From IMG/VR virus record IMGVR_UViG_3300020583_000407, positions 1 through 20,207 of that record: a DNA stretch of 20,207 nt, one strand, 5' to 3'. The stretch is from a virus. The position numbers and the translations under genes are program-made. The notes under the pieces are model-generated. The model worked only from the letters and a program-made list of their open reading frames with translations, had not been told where the DNA came from and ran no database searches. This document shows, in pieces, positions 7,669-20,207 of this stretch. Each line of letters begins with the position of its first letter. Positions within the stretch are counted from its first letter, which is position 1.

Positions 7669-9721
7669 GAAGCTACAACAATACTTGTCAGATAAAGAAT
7701 ATGTCTCTTATGACTGTGAGACCACGGGCCTTACCAACAGCGATGAGATTATTGGCTTTTCTGTATGCGCAGAAGAAGATAAGGCATATTATGTAGTGTT
7801 GTCCAAATGGAATAAAGATACGCAAGCTTTAGAGTATCTGCCCGGCAATAAAGAAGCAGCACAGTCTGTTATACAAATGTTAGTACAGAAGTCTTTAATC
7901 ATGCACAATGCCATATTTGACTGTAGAATGGCCGAATCCTTCTTCAAAATACGACTCATCGATAGCCTTCATACAGATACTATGATTTTGGCTCACTTAT
8001 TAGACGAAAACCGCCGCAAAGGCCTAAAGGAACTTGCAAAATCTATATTCGGAGAGCATTCAGCCGACGAACAAATTGAGATGAAAACCAGTGTATTGGC
8101 TAACGGAGGGCAACTTACTAAAAGTAACTACGAGCTCTACAAGGCAGACTCAGCATTGTTAGGCAAGTATGGTGCTCAAGATGCTTTACTAACACTAAGA
8201 CTTTTTTATCATTTAATACCAAGTTTATTTGCTCAAAAACTTGACGTGTTCTTTTATAAAGATGAGTCAATGCCACTACTTAGAGGACCCACTTATGAAC
8301 TTAATACGACTGGCTTGCAAGTAGACACCAAGAAACTTACTGCATTGAAAAAGACGCTAGAAGCAGAATGTGCAGAGGCCGAAGCTTTTATACAACAAGA
8401 AATCGCTCCTCACATCAAAGATAAATACCCAGGCAACACAGTAAAGAACACCTTCAACATAGGCGCCTCTACACAACTATCCTGGCTTTTATATGGAAAG
8501 CTGGGCCTGGAATTCAATACTCTTACTAAAGGCGGCAAAAACATCTGTAAGGCCTTAAATATGAGGCTGCCGTATACTGCGCCTGCTAAGAGAGAGTTTA
8601 TCGCCGCGTGCGAACGAGAAAAAGGCAATGTCCTCGTGCCTGCCTACATAGGTAACGGCAAGAAAGCCTCAGTGAAGAAGTATAAAGAGCCGTGGGGATA
8701 TATAGCTTGCGACAAAGCTGCCTTAAAGAAAATAGCCCATAAATACAAATGGATAGAGCGTCTGCTTGAATACCAACGCAAAATGAAACTCTTGTCGACA
8801 TATGTCAAAGGCATAGAGGAGCGAGTAGAGTACGGTGTTATACGACCTAGCTTCCTCCAGGCGGGTACTTCATCAGGCCGATACTCCAGTAAGGCGCCTA
8901 ATTTTCAAAACCTTCCTAGAGACGACCAGCGTATTAAGGACTGTATAATAGCTCGCCCAGGCAAGGTGTTTGTGATAGCTGACTATAGTCAACTTGAACC
9001 CCGAGTGTTTGCTTATTATAGCAAAGACTCTCGACTCATGGCTGCTTTCGATGGCACAAGTGATTTCTACTCGGTTGTAGGCATCGAAGTCTACGACAAA
9101 CACGATGCAAAGCCCCAGAAAGATGGCTCTCCAGATGCCTTCGGTGTTAAATATAAGAAATTACGAGACTTATCTAAAGTCATAGCCCTGGCGAGTGCTT
9201 ATGGCGCCACCCCTTATCAATTGGCACCCACGACAGGTAAGAGTATAGACGATACTGCAGAAGATATGGCTAAATATTTCGAGCAATTTCCAGGTGTTAA
9301 GACTATGATGCTAGAAGCGCATGATCAAGCCAAGAAGCAAGGCTTTGTGACTAATTTATTTGGACGTCCTAGGCGTATCCCAGAAGCTAAAAAGATTACT
9401 AAATTATACGGCAACATCTCGCATGCTGAGCTTCCGTATGAGGCCAGAAAGCTATTAAACTTATCTTGCAATCATAGAATCCAGTCCACAGGGGCATCTT
9501 TAATCAACCGAGCGGCTATTAGATTCCATCAAAACTTGATAAAAGCAGGGATAGAATGCAAAATAGTGATGCAAGTCCACGACGAATTGATTGTAGAATG
9601 CCAAGAAGCAGACGCCGATGACGTGAGTTTATTGCTTCAAGATGCTATGGAAAATACGAATCGTCTTGAAGGTATTGCATTAGAGGCTATTCCTAGGATT
9701 AGCAGGAGTCTTTCAAAATGA
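7625..9721 (+). CDS. polA: Family A DNA polymerase with 3'-5' exonuclease
   Basis: A 698-residue replicative polymerase. Exonuclease motifs: YDCETTG (D30, E32), HNAIFDCR (N95, D99) and YGAQDALL (D186). Polymerase: GRYSSKAPNFQNLP (419-431), motif A DYSQLEPR (D453), motif B RDLSKVIALASAYG (R514, K518, Y526) and motif C VHDE (H652, D653). Aligning motif B with E. coli Pol I places Leu522 where E. coli has Phe762. There is no 5' nuclease domain, as is usual in phages. A roughly 50-residue stretch (488-512) between motifs A and B looks like a family-specific insertion. Start ATG 7625 is preceded by AAGGAAGGAG and lies in the end of the primase-helicase gene; the stop overlaps the next ATG (ATGA). 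Confidence 0.97.
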   Translation: MKPQLIVLDTVQDIEKLQQYLSDKEYVSYDCETTGLTNSDEIIGFSVCAEEDKAYYVVLSKWNKDTQALEYLPGNKEAAQSVIQMLVQKSLIMHNAIFDCRMAESFFKIRLIDSLHTDTMILAHLLDENRRKGLKELAKSIFGEHSADEQIEMKTSVLANGGQLTKSNYELYKADSALLGKYGAQDALLTLRLFYHLIPSLFAQKLDVFFYKDESMPLLRGPTYELNTTGLQVDTKKLTALKKTLEAECAEAEAFIQQEIAPHIKDKYPGNTVKNTFNIGASTQLSWLLYGKLGLEFNTLTKGGKNICKALNMRLPYTAPAKREFIAACEREKGNVLVPAYIGNGKKASVKKYKEPWGYIACDKAALKKIAHKYKWIERLLEYQRKMKLLSTYVKGIEERVEYGVIRPSFLQAGTSSGRYSSKAPNFQNLPRDDQRIKDCIIARPGKVFVIADYSQLEPRVFAYYSKDSRLMAAFDGTSDFYSVVGIEVYDKHDAKPQKDGSPDAFGVKYKKLRDLSKVIALASAYGATPYQLAPTTGKSIDDTAEDMAKYFEQFPGVKTMMLEAHDQAKKQGFVTNLFGRPRRIPEAKKITKLYGNISHAELPYEARKLLNLSCNHRIQSTGASLINRAAIRFHQNLIKAGIECKIVMQVHDELIVECQEADADDVSLLLQDAMENTNRLEGIALEAIPRISRSLSK

Positions 9722-9990
9722 TTAAAAGAAAACAAATCAAGGGGCAGCTTTATGGGCAGCTTTATTGGCAGCTTTGGGAGCAGCTTAGGGAGCAGCTTAG
9801 TGAGCAGCTTTGGGGGCAGCTTAGTGGGCAGCTTTATGGGCAGCTTTATGGGCAGCTTGGTGGGCAGCTTGATAGGCAGCTTTGGGGGCAGCTTGGTGGG
9901 CAGCTTAGTGGGCAGCTTTATGGGCAGCTTAGTGAGCAGCTTTGGGAGCAGCTTAGTCAAAATATTATAAAAATAGTTGACTATTCATAA
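9718..9990 (+). CDS. xQLx tetrapeptide-repeat protein
   Basis: A 90-residue protein made of a basic head (MIKRKQIK), 18 consecutive xQLx units, and a short tail ending KIVDYS. The flanking positions are mainly G, E, Y, W and S (GQLY, EQLW, GQLS). Translation is supported by the ATGA overlap with the polymerase stop. Gln-Leu repeats with a four-residue period could form a helical or beta-solenoid rod with Leu inside, but I know no function. I recall similar QLxx repeat proteins in other phage genomes, without a named family. It is the last gene before the promoter at 9977, which begins inside its final codons. Confidence 0.6.
   Translation: MIKRKQIKGQLYGQLYWQLWEQLREQLSEQLWGQLSGQLYGQLYGQLGGQLDRQLWGQLGGQLSGQLYGQLSEQLWEQLSQNIIKIVDYS
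9742..9957 (+). repeat. 18-copy 12-base tandem repeat with invariant CAGCTT
   Basis: Eighteen 12-base units run without a gap, each with the core CAGCTT flanked by variable triplets (GGG, GAG, TGG or AGG before; TAT, TGG, AGT, GGT, AGG or GAT after). The core never varies even at silent positions, whereas the flanks do. The period is a multiple of three, so three frames stay open across it, including one on the opposite strand. Confidence 0.97.
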
Positions 9991-15087: not shown

Positions 15088-16988
15088 TGAAAGTCACTGG
15101 CGTTCCAGCCCCTAAATCAAAAGTTACCTTCAAGACTCAGCCGACTACTGAGTCTATGGTGTTGCATCAATGGTGGCTGGACTCTAATCCAGACAAAGCT
15201 GCCTCCTATATGCTTACGACTGCAGCCTACCTAAAAGAATCTCAACAATACAGGTATCGACAGGCAGCCGTCTATGCTCGCTTATATGGCAACCAAAGCC
15301 TCTATTCCTTTGCAGGTTCAAACATTTCTAAGATGGACCAGACCTATGGCCTCCCCCAAGAGCGTCCTACCTTCAACCTAATACAAAGCGTAACAGACAC
15401 ATTAGTCTCCCGCATCACCCAGTCCAGACCCCAACCAGTATTCCTGACCGACAACGGGGACTACAAACAACGTACCTTAGCTAAGAAGCTCAATAACTTT
15501 ATCTTAGGTGAGTTCTACCACACCAAAGCCTATGAACTAGCTGCCATTGTCATGAGAGACGCCCTAGTCGAAGGCACAGGTGTCCTACATACGTTTGAGA
15601 CACCAGACAACAGAGTAGGCTTAGAGCGCGTTCTATTGACAGAACTCTTAGTCGATCCCAACGAGTCCATGTATGGTGAACCAAGACAACTGTACCGTAT
15701 CAAACTAGTCGACAGAACCGTCTTGATGGCCAATTTTCCTAAATTCAAGCAAAAACTAGAGATTGCAGCCAAAGCCTACCCAGACAACTCAGCTGACAGC
15801 TCAAAGACTGTCTCTGACCTCATCATGGTAGTCGAAGGCTGGCACCTGCGCTCAGGCAAGAACGCTAGTGATGGCAGACATACTCTCGCTTGCTCTTCTG
15901 GCTACCTGATAGATGAAGAGTACACTAAGGACCGCTTCCCATTCACTTTCCTCCATTACGCTCCTCGCCTATTAGGCTTCTGGAGCCAAGGTGTGGCAGA
16001 GCAGTTAATGGGCACTCAAATGGAATTAAACAGTATCCTGTACACGATTTCGCGTGCAATTAAGCTTGTAGGCGTTCCGCGTATATTTATGGAGGAAAGC
16101 TCCAAAGTAAACTCTGCTGCCTTCAACAATGAGATAGGGACTATCATAAAGTATCGTGGTGCTGTAAAGCCAGAATATGAAGTCACTCAATCAAACGCTT
16201 CAGACCTTTATGCAGAAAGAGACAAGCTAATCCAATATGGATACCAGCAATCAGGGGTGTCTGCCCTTCAAGCCTCGTCACAAAAGCCTCAGGGTCTCGA
16301 TTCTGGGGAAGCAATACGAACTTATGATGATATTTCGACAGATCGTTTTGCTAGTCTATCTCGTCGCTATGACAATATGTTTATTGATTTAGCCTATCAA
16401 ATCATAGACTTAGCCAAGGACATTACTGAAGAGCAAGGCAGCTACTCTACAGTCTATCCTAATAAGAACAGCACCAAAGAAATCGACCTCAAGAAATCAG
16501 ACCTCGTAGCTGACACCTTTGTCATCCAGTGCTTCACCCAAAGTTCGCTCCCTAAAGACCCAGCCGGACGCCTAGCCAAGGTGACTGAAATGGTCACCAG
16601 TGGCATGGTGACTCTTCAAGAAGGCAGGCGCCTACTCGATTATCCTGACCTTGAGCAAATTGAAAAACTTGCTAACGCGGGAGAAGAAAGAATTTTTCAA
16701 ATTCTTGACGACATTATCGAAACAGGTAAGTACACTCCGCCTGATCCTTTTATGGACTTACAACTTGCTACGACTTTAACAACTCAATACATCAACTTAT
16801 ATAGTCAAGCCAAACTAGAAGAGTCTAAAGCTCAGAAGCTTCGTGATTTCTTTACTCAAATTCAGGCAATTAAACAAGCAGCTCAGCCGCCTCCACAACC
16901 CATGCAGCCAGAGCCTCAACAAGCAGGTGTTCCTCAACCTTCTGTAGCTCCTCCTCCACAACAACTTGGGATTAACTCGCAGCGATGA
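15087..16988 (+). CDS. Portal protein (head-tail connector)
   Basis: A 633-residue portal, forming the dodecameric ring through which DNA enters and to which the tail attaches. Recognisable are RPTFNLIQSVTDTLVSRI and ALVEGTGVLHTF in the N-terminal wing, the LGFWSQGVAEQLMGTQMEL segment leading into the stem helix (about 310-330), SAIKLVG/PRIFMEE-like strand after it, and SGVSALQASSQKP with the GLDSGEAIR loop. The last 50 residues are Pro/Gln-rich. The stop overlaps the GIY-YIG start (ATGA). The natural C-terminus may have been altered by that insertion, because the GIY-YIG gene ends in a proline-rich, portal-like tail. Confidence 0.93.
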   Translation: MKVTGVPAPKSKVTFKTQPTTESMVLHQWWLDSNPDKAASYMLTTAAYLKESQQYRYRQAAVYARLYGNQSLYSFAGSNISKMDQTYGLPQERPTFNLIQSVTDTLVSRITQSRPQPVFLTDNGDYKQRTLAKKLNNFILGEFYHTKAYELAAIVMRDALVEGTGVLHTFETPDNRVGLERVLLTELLVDPNESMYGEPRQLYRIKLVDRTVLMANFPKFKQKLEIAAKAYPDNSADSSKTVSDLIMVVEGWHLRSGKNASDGRHTLACSSGYLIDEEYTKDRFPFTFLHYAPRLLGFWSQGVAEQLMGTQMELNSILYTISRAIKLVGVPRIFMEESSKVNSAAFNNEIGTIIKYRGAVKPEYEVTQSNASDLYAERDKLIQYGYQQSGVSALQASSQKPQGLDSGEAIRTYDDISTDRFASLSRRYDNMFIDLAYQIIDLAKDITEEQGSYSTVYPNKNSTKEIDLKKSDLVADTFVIQCFTQSSLPKDPAGRLAKVTEMVTSGMVTLQEGRRLLDYPDLEQIEKLANAGEERIFQILDDIIETGKYTPPDPFMDLQLATTLTTQYINLYSQAKLEESKAQKLRDFFTQIQAIKQAAQPPPQPMQPEPQQAGVPQPSVAPPPQQLGINSQR

Positions 16989-17515
16989 TTGTCTACAAAA
17001 TAGTTAATAAAATCAATGGCAAAAGCTATGTGGGGCAGACAGTTCGCTCTTTGCGAATTCGATTCCTCCAACATTGTAAATCGCACTCTCATTGCACGGC
17101 TTTAAATAAAGCTATTCAAAAATATGGAGCAGAAAACTTCGCCTCAGAAATACTGTTTGAATCTGAATGCAAACAGCAGATAACTAAAAAAGAGATTTAT
17201 TTCATTAAAGAACTTAGCACAATGGCCCCGCTAGGCTACAATCTAACCGAAGGCGGAGAAAGCGCATCACATACGCCTGAGAGCCGTAAAAAACTATCCG
17301 AAGCAAAAAAAGGCGCAAAGAATCCTCAATTTGGTAAAAAACGTAGCTTCGAAGCTAGAGCTAAAACATCAACTGCTCTTAAAGGCCGCAAACGTCCTCA
17401 ATGGGTAAAAGATAAGATACGCGCCAGCCACAATCCGAAATCAAATAAAAACCTAACCTATAGGCGCAAACCTATGCCTACATCGCCTTTAGTGCCAAAC
17501 GGAGCCGGACAATAA
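16985..17515 (+). CDS. GIY-YIG homing endonuclease with NUMOD3 repeats
   Basis: A 176-residue I-TevI-type enzyme. The GIY-YIG domain has VYKI (Y4), YVG (Y15, G17), R25 as catalytic arginine and E70 as metal ligand. Then GYNLTEGGESASHTPES leads to two NUMOD3-like DNA-binding segments (TPESRKKLSEAKKG and a more diverged SFEARAKTSTALKG). It would cut DNA in alleles lacking the insert and spread by repair. It sits in frame-tight junctions (ATGA with portal, TAATG with the next gene), so it is free-standing and co-transcribed with late genes; no intron fold is seen. The last 15 residues (KPMPTSPLVPNGAGQ) do not look like a DNA-binding module. Confidence 0.9.
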   Translation: MIVYKIVNKINGKSYVGQTVRSLRIRFLQHCKSHSHCTALNKAIQKYGAENFASEILFESECKQQITKKEIYFIKELSTMAPLGYNLTEGGESASHTPESRKKLSEAKKGAKNPQFGKKRSFEARAKTSTALKGRKRPQWVKDKIRASHNPKSNKNLTYRRKPMPTSPLVPNGAGQ

Positions 17516-19241: not shown

Positions 19242-19388
19242 ATGGCAGCAGTTTATGCCAATAGTGCGAATCAAATCGCAGCTTTAAAAGAATTGTATAC
19301 CGATGACAAGGAATACATGAAAGATTTAGTGTATAAGGAAAATCCATTCCTTGCACTAGTGCCTAAAAACGAGAGTCCTTCTAAGTAA
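19242..19388 (+). CDS. Major capsid protein, first coding segment (ends at in-frame TAA)
   Basis: ATG 19242 opens a frame encoding 48 residues. The beginning, AAVYANSANQIAALKELYTD, and then YMKDLVYKENPFLALVPKNE, match the N-terminal arm and first helix of HK97-fold capsid proteins of podovirus-like phages (NPFLALVPK is the familiar phrase). After NESPSK comes TAA at 19386-19388, far short of a usual 300-350 residue capsid protein. The next pieces of the same protein are in another frame (19424/19430-19447) and after a group I intron (20062 on). As the window holds no other capsid gene, this is presumably the functional one. Confidence 0.88.
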   Translation: MAAVYANSANQIAALKELYTDDKEYMKDLVYKENPFLALVPKNESPSK

Positions 19389-19423
19389 CCGTTGGGTCTC
19401 TCGGTAATTTTACCTGCGCATAA
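19383..19423 (+). other. Unexplained stop-containing gap within the capsid gene
   Basis: Between NESPS (codon ending 19382) and the resumed capsid sequence (ATG-GAC-GGT at 19424-19432, or GGT at 19430) lie 41 to 47 bases. TAA occurs in frame 1 at 19386, in the resumed frame at 19382-19384 and 19421-19423, and in the third frame at 19405-19407. No single frameshift can cross it. It contains two mutually exclusive short hairpins: ACCG 19388-19391 with CGGT 19402-19405, and GGTA 19403-19406 with TACC 19411-19414. It lies outside the group I fold that begins at 19448. TAAGTA occurs at 19382-19387 and again at 19441-19446. Exact borders are uncertain by a few codons. Confidence 0.75.
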
Positions 19424-19447
19424 ATGGACGGTTTTGCAGGTAAGTAT
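19424..19447 (+). CDS. Major capsid protein, short middle coding segment (MDGFAGKY)
   Basis: ATG GAC GGT TTT GCA GGT AAG TAT reads MDGFAGKY and ends exactly at the predicted 5' splice site. FxGK followed by (x)IPVPL is a recurrent phrase in HK97-type capsid proteins, and after intron removal this segment joins IPVPLEYG in frame. Whether the first one or two codons belong to the protein is unclear. No Shine-Dalgarno is visible before the ATG. Confidence 0.75.
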
Positions 19448-19622
19448 GGATATCGTACCACTAGCTAGTAATAGCTAGCAGAAAACTGGTCAAAAACGGT
19501 GGAGGCTGAAACGCTAATACCGTGCTAATCTCAGATAGTAACGACTTTGAGACAGTGTAACGCGTAGTACTTGAAACTAACTACTTGATATGTTAGAATA
19601 AAATAGTACCAAGAGTGACCGG

Positions 19623-19640
19623 AAACCCAAGAGGTTTATG
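19623..19640 (+). promoter_or_regulatory. Ribosome site of the intron endonuclease buried in P8
   Basis: AAGAGG at 19629-19634 is the only Shine-Dalgarno-like sequence for the HNH gene. Its bases form the loop and the 3' strand of the P8 hairpin (AAACC 19623-19627, GGTTT 19633-19637). Folded intron RNA should therefore hinder translation of the endonuclease, as is known by other means for T4 intron genes. Spacing is 3 bases to ATG 19638 and 6 to ATG 19641. Confidence 0.55.
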
Positions 19641-20039
19641 ATGTATGCTGAGCTTAAACAAAAGATATGCCAAGGATGCAATAAAACTAAAGACGAAAAA
19701 GAATTTAGTCGCATCTCTAGAGGTAAGAAAACGACACAGCCTTATTGTAAAGAATGTCGTTCTTATAAAGAGTTTGTCAGAGGTTTAAAAAGAAACTATG
19801 GCATTATTCCTGAGCAATACAATAAAATGCTCCTATCTCAAGGCAATAGCTGTGCTTGTTGTGGAGAACATGAATCTAATTTCAAACGTAGACTTCATGT
19901 AGACCACGACCATACAACTCGGCAGGTAAGAGCCTTATTATGTACTCGATGCAATCCATTAGTAGGATTCGCCAAAGAAGATATAACAAGACTTGAAATG
20001 ACCGCAACCTATCTAAGAAAGTTTAAGAAGTTAGGATAA
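19641..20039 (+). CDS. Intron-encoded endonuclease VII-type HNH homing endonuclease
   Basis: A 132-residue protein (133 from ATG 19638). Domains: an N-terminal zinc ribbon CQGC...CKEC, a linker helix with NYGIIPEQYNKMLLSQ, then the endonuclease VII core CACC, VDHDH (Asp-His-x-His) and LLCTRCN, with the conserved Asn. The extra N-terminal ribbon is absent from the paralogue at 2605. Located in the group I intron, it should cut intronless capsid genes around the GKY/IPV junction and promote intron transfer. Start 19641 is favoured by spacing to AAGAGG. The stop codon ends 5 bases before the P7' strand, so the ORF occupies the space between P8 and P7. Confidence 0.9.
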   Translation: MYAELKQKICQGCNKTKDEKEFSRISRGKKTTQPYCKECRSYKEFVRGLKRNYGIIPEQYNKMLLSQGNSCACCGEHESNFKRRLHVDHDHTTRQVRALLCTRCNPLVGFAKEDITRLEMTATYLRKFKKLG

Positions 20040-20061
20040 AAAGCCTAGCGATAACACACTG

Positions 20062-20207
20062 ATCCCCGTGCCTCTTGAATACGGCACTCCCCAAGGACGT
20101 AGCCACACTTTTGCTAATGCCCAGTCTCAACAGACAGCAACAGCACTAGTTAGCTATTTTGTCTTTGTCATCGAAGACTATCAACTCGTGACAATCACTA
20201 ACCTCCT
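20062..20207 (+). CDS. Major capsid protein, downstream exon (partial, runs off the window)
   Basis: From 20062 the frame ATC CCC GTG reads IPVPLEYGTPQGRSHTF, then NAQSQQTATALVSYF and YQLVTITNL, and is open to the window end. This is the E-loop and following strand region of the HK97 capsid fold as seen in podovirus-like capsid proteins (GxPQGRSxTFxNAQ). It continues GFAGKY of the segment ending at 19447 after removal of the intron. The rest of the gene lies outside. Confidence 0.92.
   Translation, partial: MPVPLEYGTPQGRSHTFANAQSQQTATALVSYFVFVIEDYQLVTITNL

Follow-up and report, generated by a model that had tools for sequence, protein, structure and literature searches.

The described system that comes closest in idea to the element analyzed in this study is the group III intron of Euglena chloroplasts, a degenerate group II intron of about 90-120 nucleotides (nt) (PMC4424553), although its chemistry is different. 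Group III introns are miniature; their catalytic domain has been lost, and they are believed to depend on RNAs or proteins that act in trans. We analyzed a stretch of viral DNA of 20,207 nt (IMG/VR record IMGVR_UViG_3300020583_000407, positions 1 to 20,207; hereafter the window), in which the capsid gene is interrupted by a complete group I intron and, upstream of it, by a short gap containing a stop codon. To judge from the sequences of the window and its relatives, the gap is very probably a non-autonomous mini-intron that is excised by the ribozyme core of the neighboring complete intron. Group III introns are kin to group II introns and are thought to use general machinery, whereas the mini-introns carry group I signals and appear to have a specific partner in the same transcript, to which they are linked by base pairing.

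Autonomous group I introns of phages (Twort orf142, Bastillevirinae; PMC3984707, PMC11878797) obey the same rule of a U before the intron and a G at its end, and carry the same P1/P10 guide. The mini-introns, in contrast, have no P3-P8 core and no endonuclease, are 30-59 nt long and apparently depend on their neighbor. Engineered trans excision-splicing ribozymes and spliceozymes (PMC4094466) are similar in that a group I core removes a core-less segment and joins its flanks. These systems are artificial, however, and their guide is located on the ribozyme, whereas that of the mini-introns is located on the excised segment. In the trans-spliced fragmented group I introns of mitochondrial cox1 (PMC2813288), group I parts also act non-contiguously, but there two pieces rebuild one full core, while the mini-intron is a separate intron without any core. 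A trans-spliced fragmented group I intron was ruled out for the present locus, since the partner intron possesses a complete core of its own.

The capsid frame of the window starts with the ATG at 19242 and reads through NESPSK to a TAA at 19386-19388. The sequence GFAGKY is encoded in another frame at 19430-19447, adjoining the downstream intron. Both readings agree with those of the preliminary description, which had placed a gap of 41-47 bases between them and had proposed alignment with gapless capsid homologues as a check. The gap was found to exist, while its borders had to be shifted by a few bases, because all 80 uninterrupted related capsid genes found by tblastn (80/80) have DGFAGKYIPVP at this position. 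These relatives define a gap of 47 nt (2 mod 3) at 19380-19426, between the P (CCT) and the conserved D (GAC) of NESP and DGFAGKY. Exon 1 (MAAVYAN...VPKNESP, 19242-19379) thus ends with CCT at 19379, and the coding sequence restarts with GAC at 19427, that is, with D and not with G. The gap is followed by a mini-exon encoding DGFAGKY (19427-19447), the complete intron (19448-20061) and exon 3 (IPVPLEYG..., 20062-20207), which continues past the end of the contig. All of these features are on the plus strand. A second contig, 3300050821_007042 (hereafter L174), is identical to the window over 1207 nt, and the same codon junction holds different inserts in other contigs from other metagenomes. 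The gap is therefore genuine and not an isolated error.

The base before the gap is a U, and the last base of the gap is a G (19426). It contains a contiguous guide, AACCGTT-GGGTCTCTC, at 19387-19402. The first half of the guide (AACCGTT, 19387-19393) is complementary to the start of the downstream exon (GACGGTT, 19427-19433). The second half (GGGTCTCTC, 19394-19402) base-pairs with the 3' end of exon 1 (GAGAGTCCT, 19371-19379), with a U.G pair at the cut and one U.U mismatch at position -4. This geometry is that of P10 and P1 of group I introns (PMC3984707). The fit of the guide reached p=0.0005, the lowest value attainable when the gap is shuffled 2000 times.

Relatives with short inserts were gathered by pattern and protein searches. 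Including that of the window, 27 mini-introns of 30-59 nt were found at nine sites in the same capsid gene of related phages; 25 of them, at eight sites, were curated, and two at the ninth site were found later. The 5' exon ended with a U opposite a guide G in 27/27 elements, and a terminal G was likewise found in 27/27, a one-base slack of the borders at some sites having been settled in favor of this U/G rule. The last three bases were TTG, ATG, AAG, GTG or ACG. For the first 25 elements, the combined P1 and P10 score at the own junction was 9-15 (mean 12.4), compared with 4.75 at the junctions of other sites (n=470), and the own junction beat every other-site junction in 23/25 elements. Individual shuffle p values ranged from 0.0005 to about 0.01 for most elements. 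The simple score was weaker for one element of locus L096 (L096_L) and for the four site-D elements, whose internal guide forms P1 and P10 only if a U bulges out of P1. Compensatory changes in both P1 and P10 were seen among the site-A elements (GAGAGTCCT:GGGTCTCTC and GAAAGCCCT:GGGGCTTTT; GACGG:CCGTC and GATGG:CCATC). No catalytic core (P3-P8 and P7) was found inside the mini-introns, whose 47 nt in the window, or 30-59 nt overall, leave no space for it; matches to the core model fall in the complete introns. By the test of a core, the mini-intron is not a group I intron, though it appears to work like one. The suggestion of a novel RNA removal in the preliminary description is strongly supported by the sequences.

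The complete intron of the window is IA-like, with a P1 of GUAU/GUAC, a P10 in which GGAT pairs with ATCC, and a 3' terminal G at 20061. Alignment of complete introns from 20 loci gave a group IA-like core comprising P3, P4, P5, P6, P7, P7.1, P7.2 and P8. Of its 39 pairs, P7 included, 97.9% of cells were paired, and 27 showed changes on both sides, with 148 double-change cells compared with 41 after shuffling. In P7, GCGUA pairs with UACGC or UAUGC at the start of an endonuclease VII-like open reading frame (ORF), with the compensatory pair GCAUA:UAUGC. The resulting covariance model (R1) finds the core at 19485-19648 in the window with 169 bits, a score to be read in light of the fact that R1 was partly built from an identical copy of this core, and it also finds the core in relatives with mini-introns. 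It matched intron-bearing contigs and gave no match in ten contigs, each 30-58 kb long, that have an intact capsid gene. Most complete introns downstream of mini-introns thus have a core supported by covariation. The partner introns of L196, L222 and L251 (site C) seem by eye to be of other group I types with a GACUA-type P7, and the core model gave only 54 bits for L222 and no score for L196. A scan with Rfam gave no group I match (RF00028) in the window at the gathering score or at E<=1, and its sole weak match was to a second-type intron in L088. Since the family model is insensitive here, the core was demonstrated by covariation instead. The endonuclease VII-like (His-Me finger) ORF (19638-20039) begins within the ribozyme core: its start codons overlap J8/7-P7', and its first codons (19638-19648) supply the 3' side of P7, an arrangement conserved across 20 introns.

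The part of the mini-intron 3' of the guide is complementary to a stretch of exon (hereafter helix X). In the window, the tail strand TTTACCTGCG (19409-19418), in the 3' half of the gap, is complementary to TGCAGGTAAG (19435-19444) in the mini-exon, whereas the preliminary description had placed the gap outside the intron fold. In 19 of 25 elements (2.8 expected), the best helix between tail and exon stops 6-9 nt short of the 5' splice site of the complete intron, abutting its P1. Among the 12 elements at least 35 nt away from the complete intron, 8 have helix X at this offset (0.8 expected). Where the complete intron is inserted elsewhere, the tail is complementary to the exon sequence beside that position. 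At intron site C, helix X covaries at synonymous third codon positions, with 18 double-change cells compared with 5.6, and none of 500 shuffles was as high. The two later elements are both located at Y412, one in L174 and one in L222. In both (p 0.0002-0.002), P1 and P10 are present, and a helix X of 10 bp stops 7 nt short of the partner intron, which is a different one in each case. The one in L174 (L174:5229-5274), a second mini-intron of the same capsid gene, is followed after 33 nt by another complete intron; an IA-type core is found at L174:4223-4399.

We then compared genes anchored downstream of N-terminal insertion sites. At least one mini-intron was present in 27/28 intron-bearing genes and in 0/51 intronless genes (Fisher p 3e-20, which ignores relatedness). 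All mini-introns are upstream of a complete intron, at a distance of 21-112 nt, and none was seen without a complete intron among the genes examined. Complete introns without a mini-intron are those of L208, L055 and L068 and the C-terminal intron of L218, which weakened an initial supposition that a mini-intron accompanies almost all complete introns. On these sequences, the dependence is one-way. Neither mini-introns nor complete introns were found in the portal, scaffold, terminase and polymerase genes. A DNA search and a capsid tblastn search of phage isolates gave no match, and a pattern scan of bacterial genomes gave no true match. In L096, which has the same gene as L187 and L189, a span of about 60 codons of the capsid gene contains at least four interruptions, two complete introns and two mini-introns. 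At the insertion site G|K, L211 has a mini-intron, and L185, L192 and L250 have complete introns; such occupancy would be expected if mini-introns arise by loss of the core.

From these sequences we infer splicing itself, its catalysis by the downstream core and an order of removal. The mini-intron, having kept the U before the 5' splice site, the P1/P10 guide and the terminal G but not the core, would present its P1 to the core of the complete intron, which would dock it in place of its own P1. Group I chemistry would then cut after the U and join the exons at the terminal G. Helix X would position the substrate, since pairing of the tail to the exon beside the P1 of the complete intron would hold the P1 of the mini-intron near the core. 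The mini-intron would have to be excised earlier than the complete intron or at the same time. It should leave first, since removal of the complete intron also takes the core out of the transcript. In the window, the overlap of helix X with the P1 strand of the complete intron could enforce this order.

Several points weigh against this mechanism. The splicing by a group I core of a segment that ends upstream of that core is not established by any natural case. Many of the elements share a common ancestry, so that the counts overstate their independence. The P1 of the window element contains the U.U mismatch, and the P1 of the complete intron has only 4 bp there. The rule for helix X was spotted by eye before testing, the two late elements not having been used in forming it, and by a mismatch-free score helix X is off the standard offset in 6/25 elements. 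These are the window; L171, L185 and L181, in which it is weak or interrupted; and L088 A and L096 L, each the second element of its gene. In our reading of the pairing output, L185 and L171 match the rule once mismatches within the helix are tolerated. Helix X of the window ends 3 nt before the complete intron, overlapping its short P1, and this offset is consistent with the shortness of that P1.

It is conceivable that a group I ribozyme removes the gap from a separate RNA, such as a free excised intron, as engineered ribozymes excise internal segments of other RNAs (trans excision-splicing; spliceozymes, PMC4094466). This is unlikely, since in most elements helix X connects the mini-intron to exon sequence adjoining the complete intron of its own transcript, at an offset that stays nearly constant whatever the intron site, and since all elements are found 21-112 nt upstream of that intron. 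In exon skipping, for which Twort orf142 and SIOphi provide natural precedents (PMC10136302, PMC11878797), the downstream intron would use the 5' splice site of the mini-intron and drop the mini-exon. The loss of 21 nt in the window would preserve the frame. The P10 part of the guide, however, matches the start of the mini-exon, DGFAGKY is conserved in 80/80 relatives, and the frame would break in several relatives (74, 62, 40 and 23 nt). We regard exon skipping as very improbable.

The preliminary description had also considered translational bypass, by analogy with T4 gene 60, in which ribosomes hop over a stop-containing gap of about 50 nt with a homing endonuclease gene nearby. The similar size, the early stop codon and the nearby endonuclease gene favor it. 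The hop in T4 uses matched codons, whereas in the window no matched take-off and landing codons yield NESPDGFAGKY; the pair AAG/AAG would delete DGFAG, which is conserved in 80/80 relatives. The gap of T4 gene 60 has neither P1/P10 pairing nor U/G ends (A before the gap, A at its end), and its reinterpretation as a hidden mini-intron was ruled out on this ground. The present elements, moreover, occur only together with group I introns. Bypass is thus highly improbable. The anatomical parallel with T4, a small gap beside an endonuclease-bearing intron, holds; the link between gap and intron, however, appears to be RNA catalysis, with a short intron using the ribozyme of its neighbor, and not a common mobile cassette as in T4. 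We give the least credence to a dead gene, an assembly error or a capsid of two chains. The contig is a metagenome fragment, and an in-frame ATG at 19424 (ATG GAC GGT) could restart translation. Nevertheless, the second contig is identical, many contigs have different inserts, the capsid exons stay conserved while compensatory synonymous changes maintain the RNA pairings, and the ATG is not common to most elements.

It is likely that the elements form a class of their own in nature, mini-introns of group I type that are non-autonomous, are excised in cis, address a neighboring ribozyme via a dedicated docking helix and thereby render the neighboring intron indispensable to the phage. No description of natural core-less group I introns was found in the open-access PMC literature, closed-access literature not being covered. 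If this reading is true, the window would present the first natural case known to us of a group I ribozyme removing a core-less intron that is not its own, and an equivalent, within group I, of the group III introns. It would also offer a working model for the passing of catalysis from individual introns to a shared RNA, a proposed step in the origin of the spliceosome (PMC4424553). A phage losing the complete intron could then no longer make capsid, which suggests a possible reason for the persistence of the intron; an essential capsid gene would in effect be addicted, at the RNA level, to a selfish intron.

Elsewhere in the window, ORFs at 16985-17515 and 2596-2904 resemble, by inspection only, free-standing endonucleases of the GIY-YIG and HNH types. 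A repetitive ORF at 9718-9990, rich in GQL/YGQL units, overlaps a repetitive ORF on the opposite strand.
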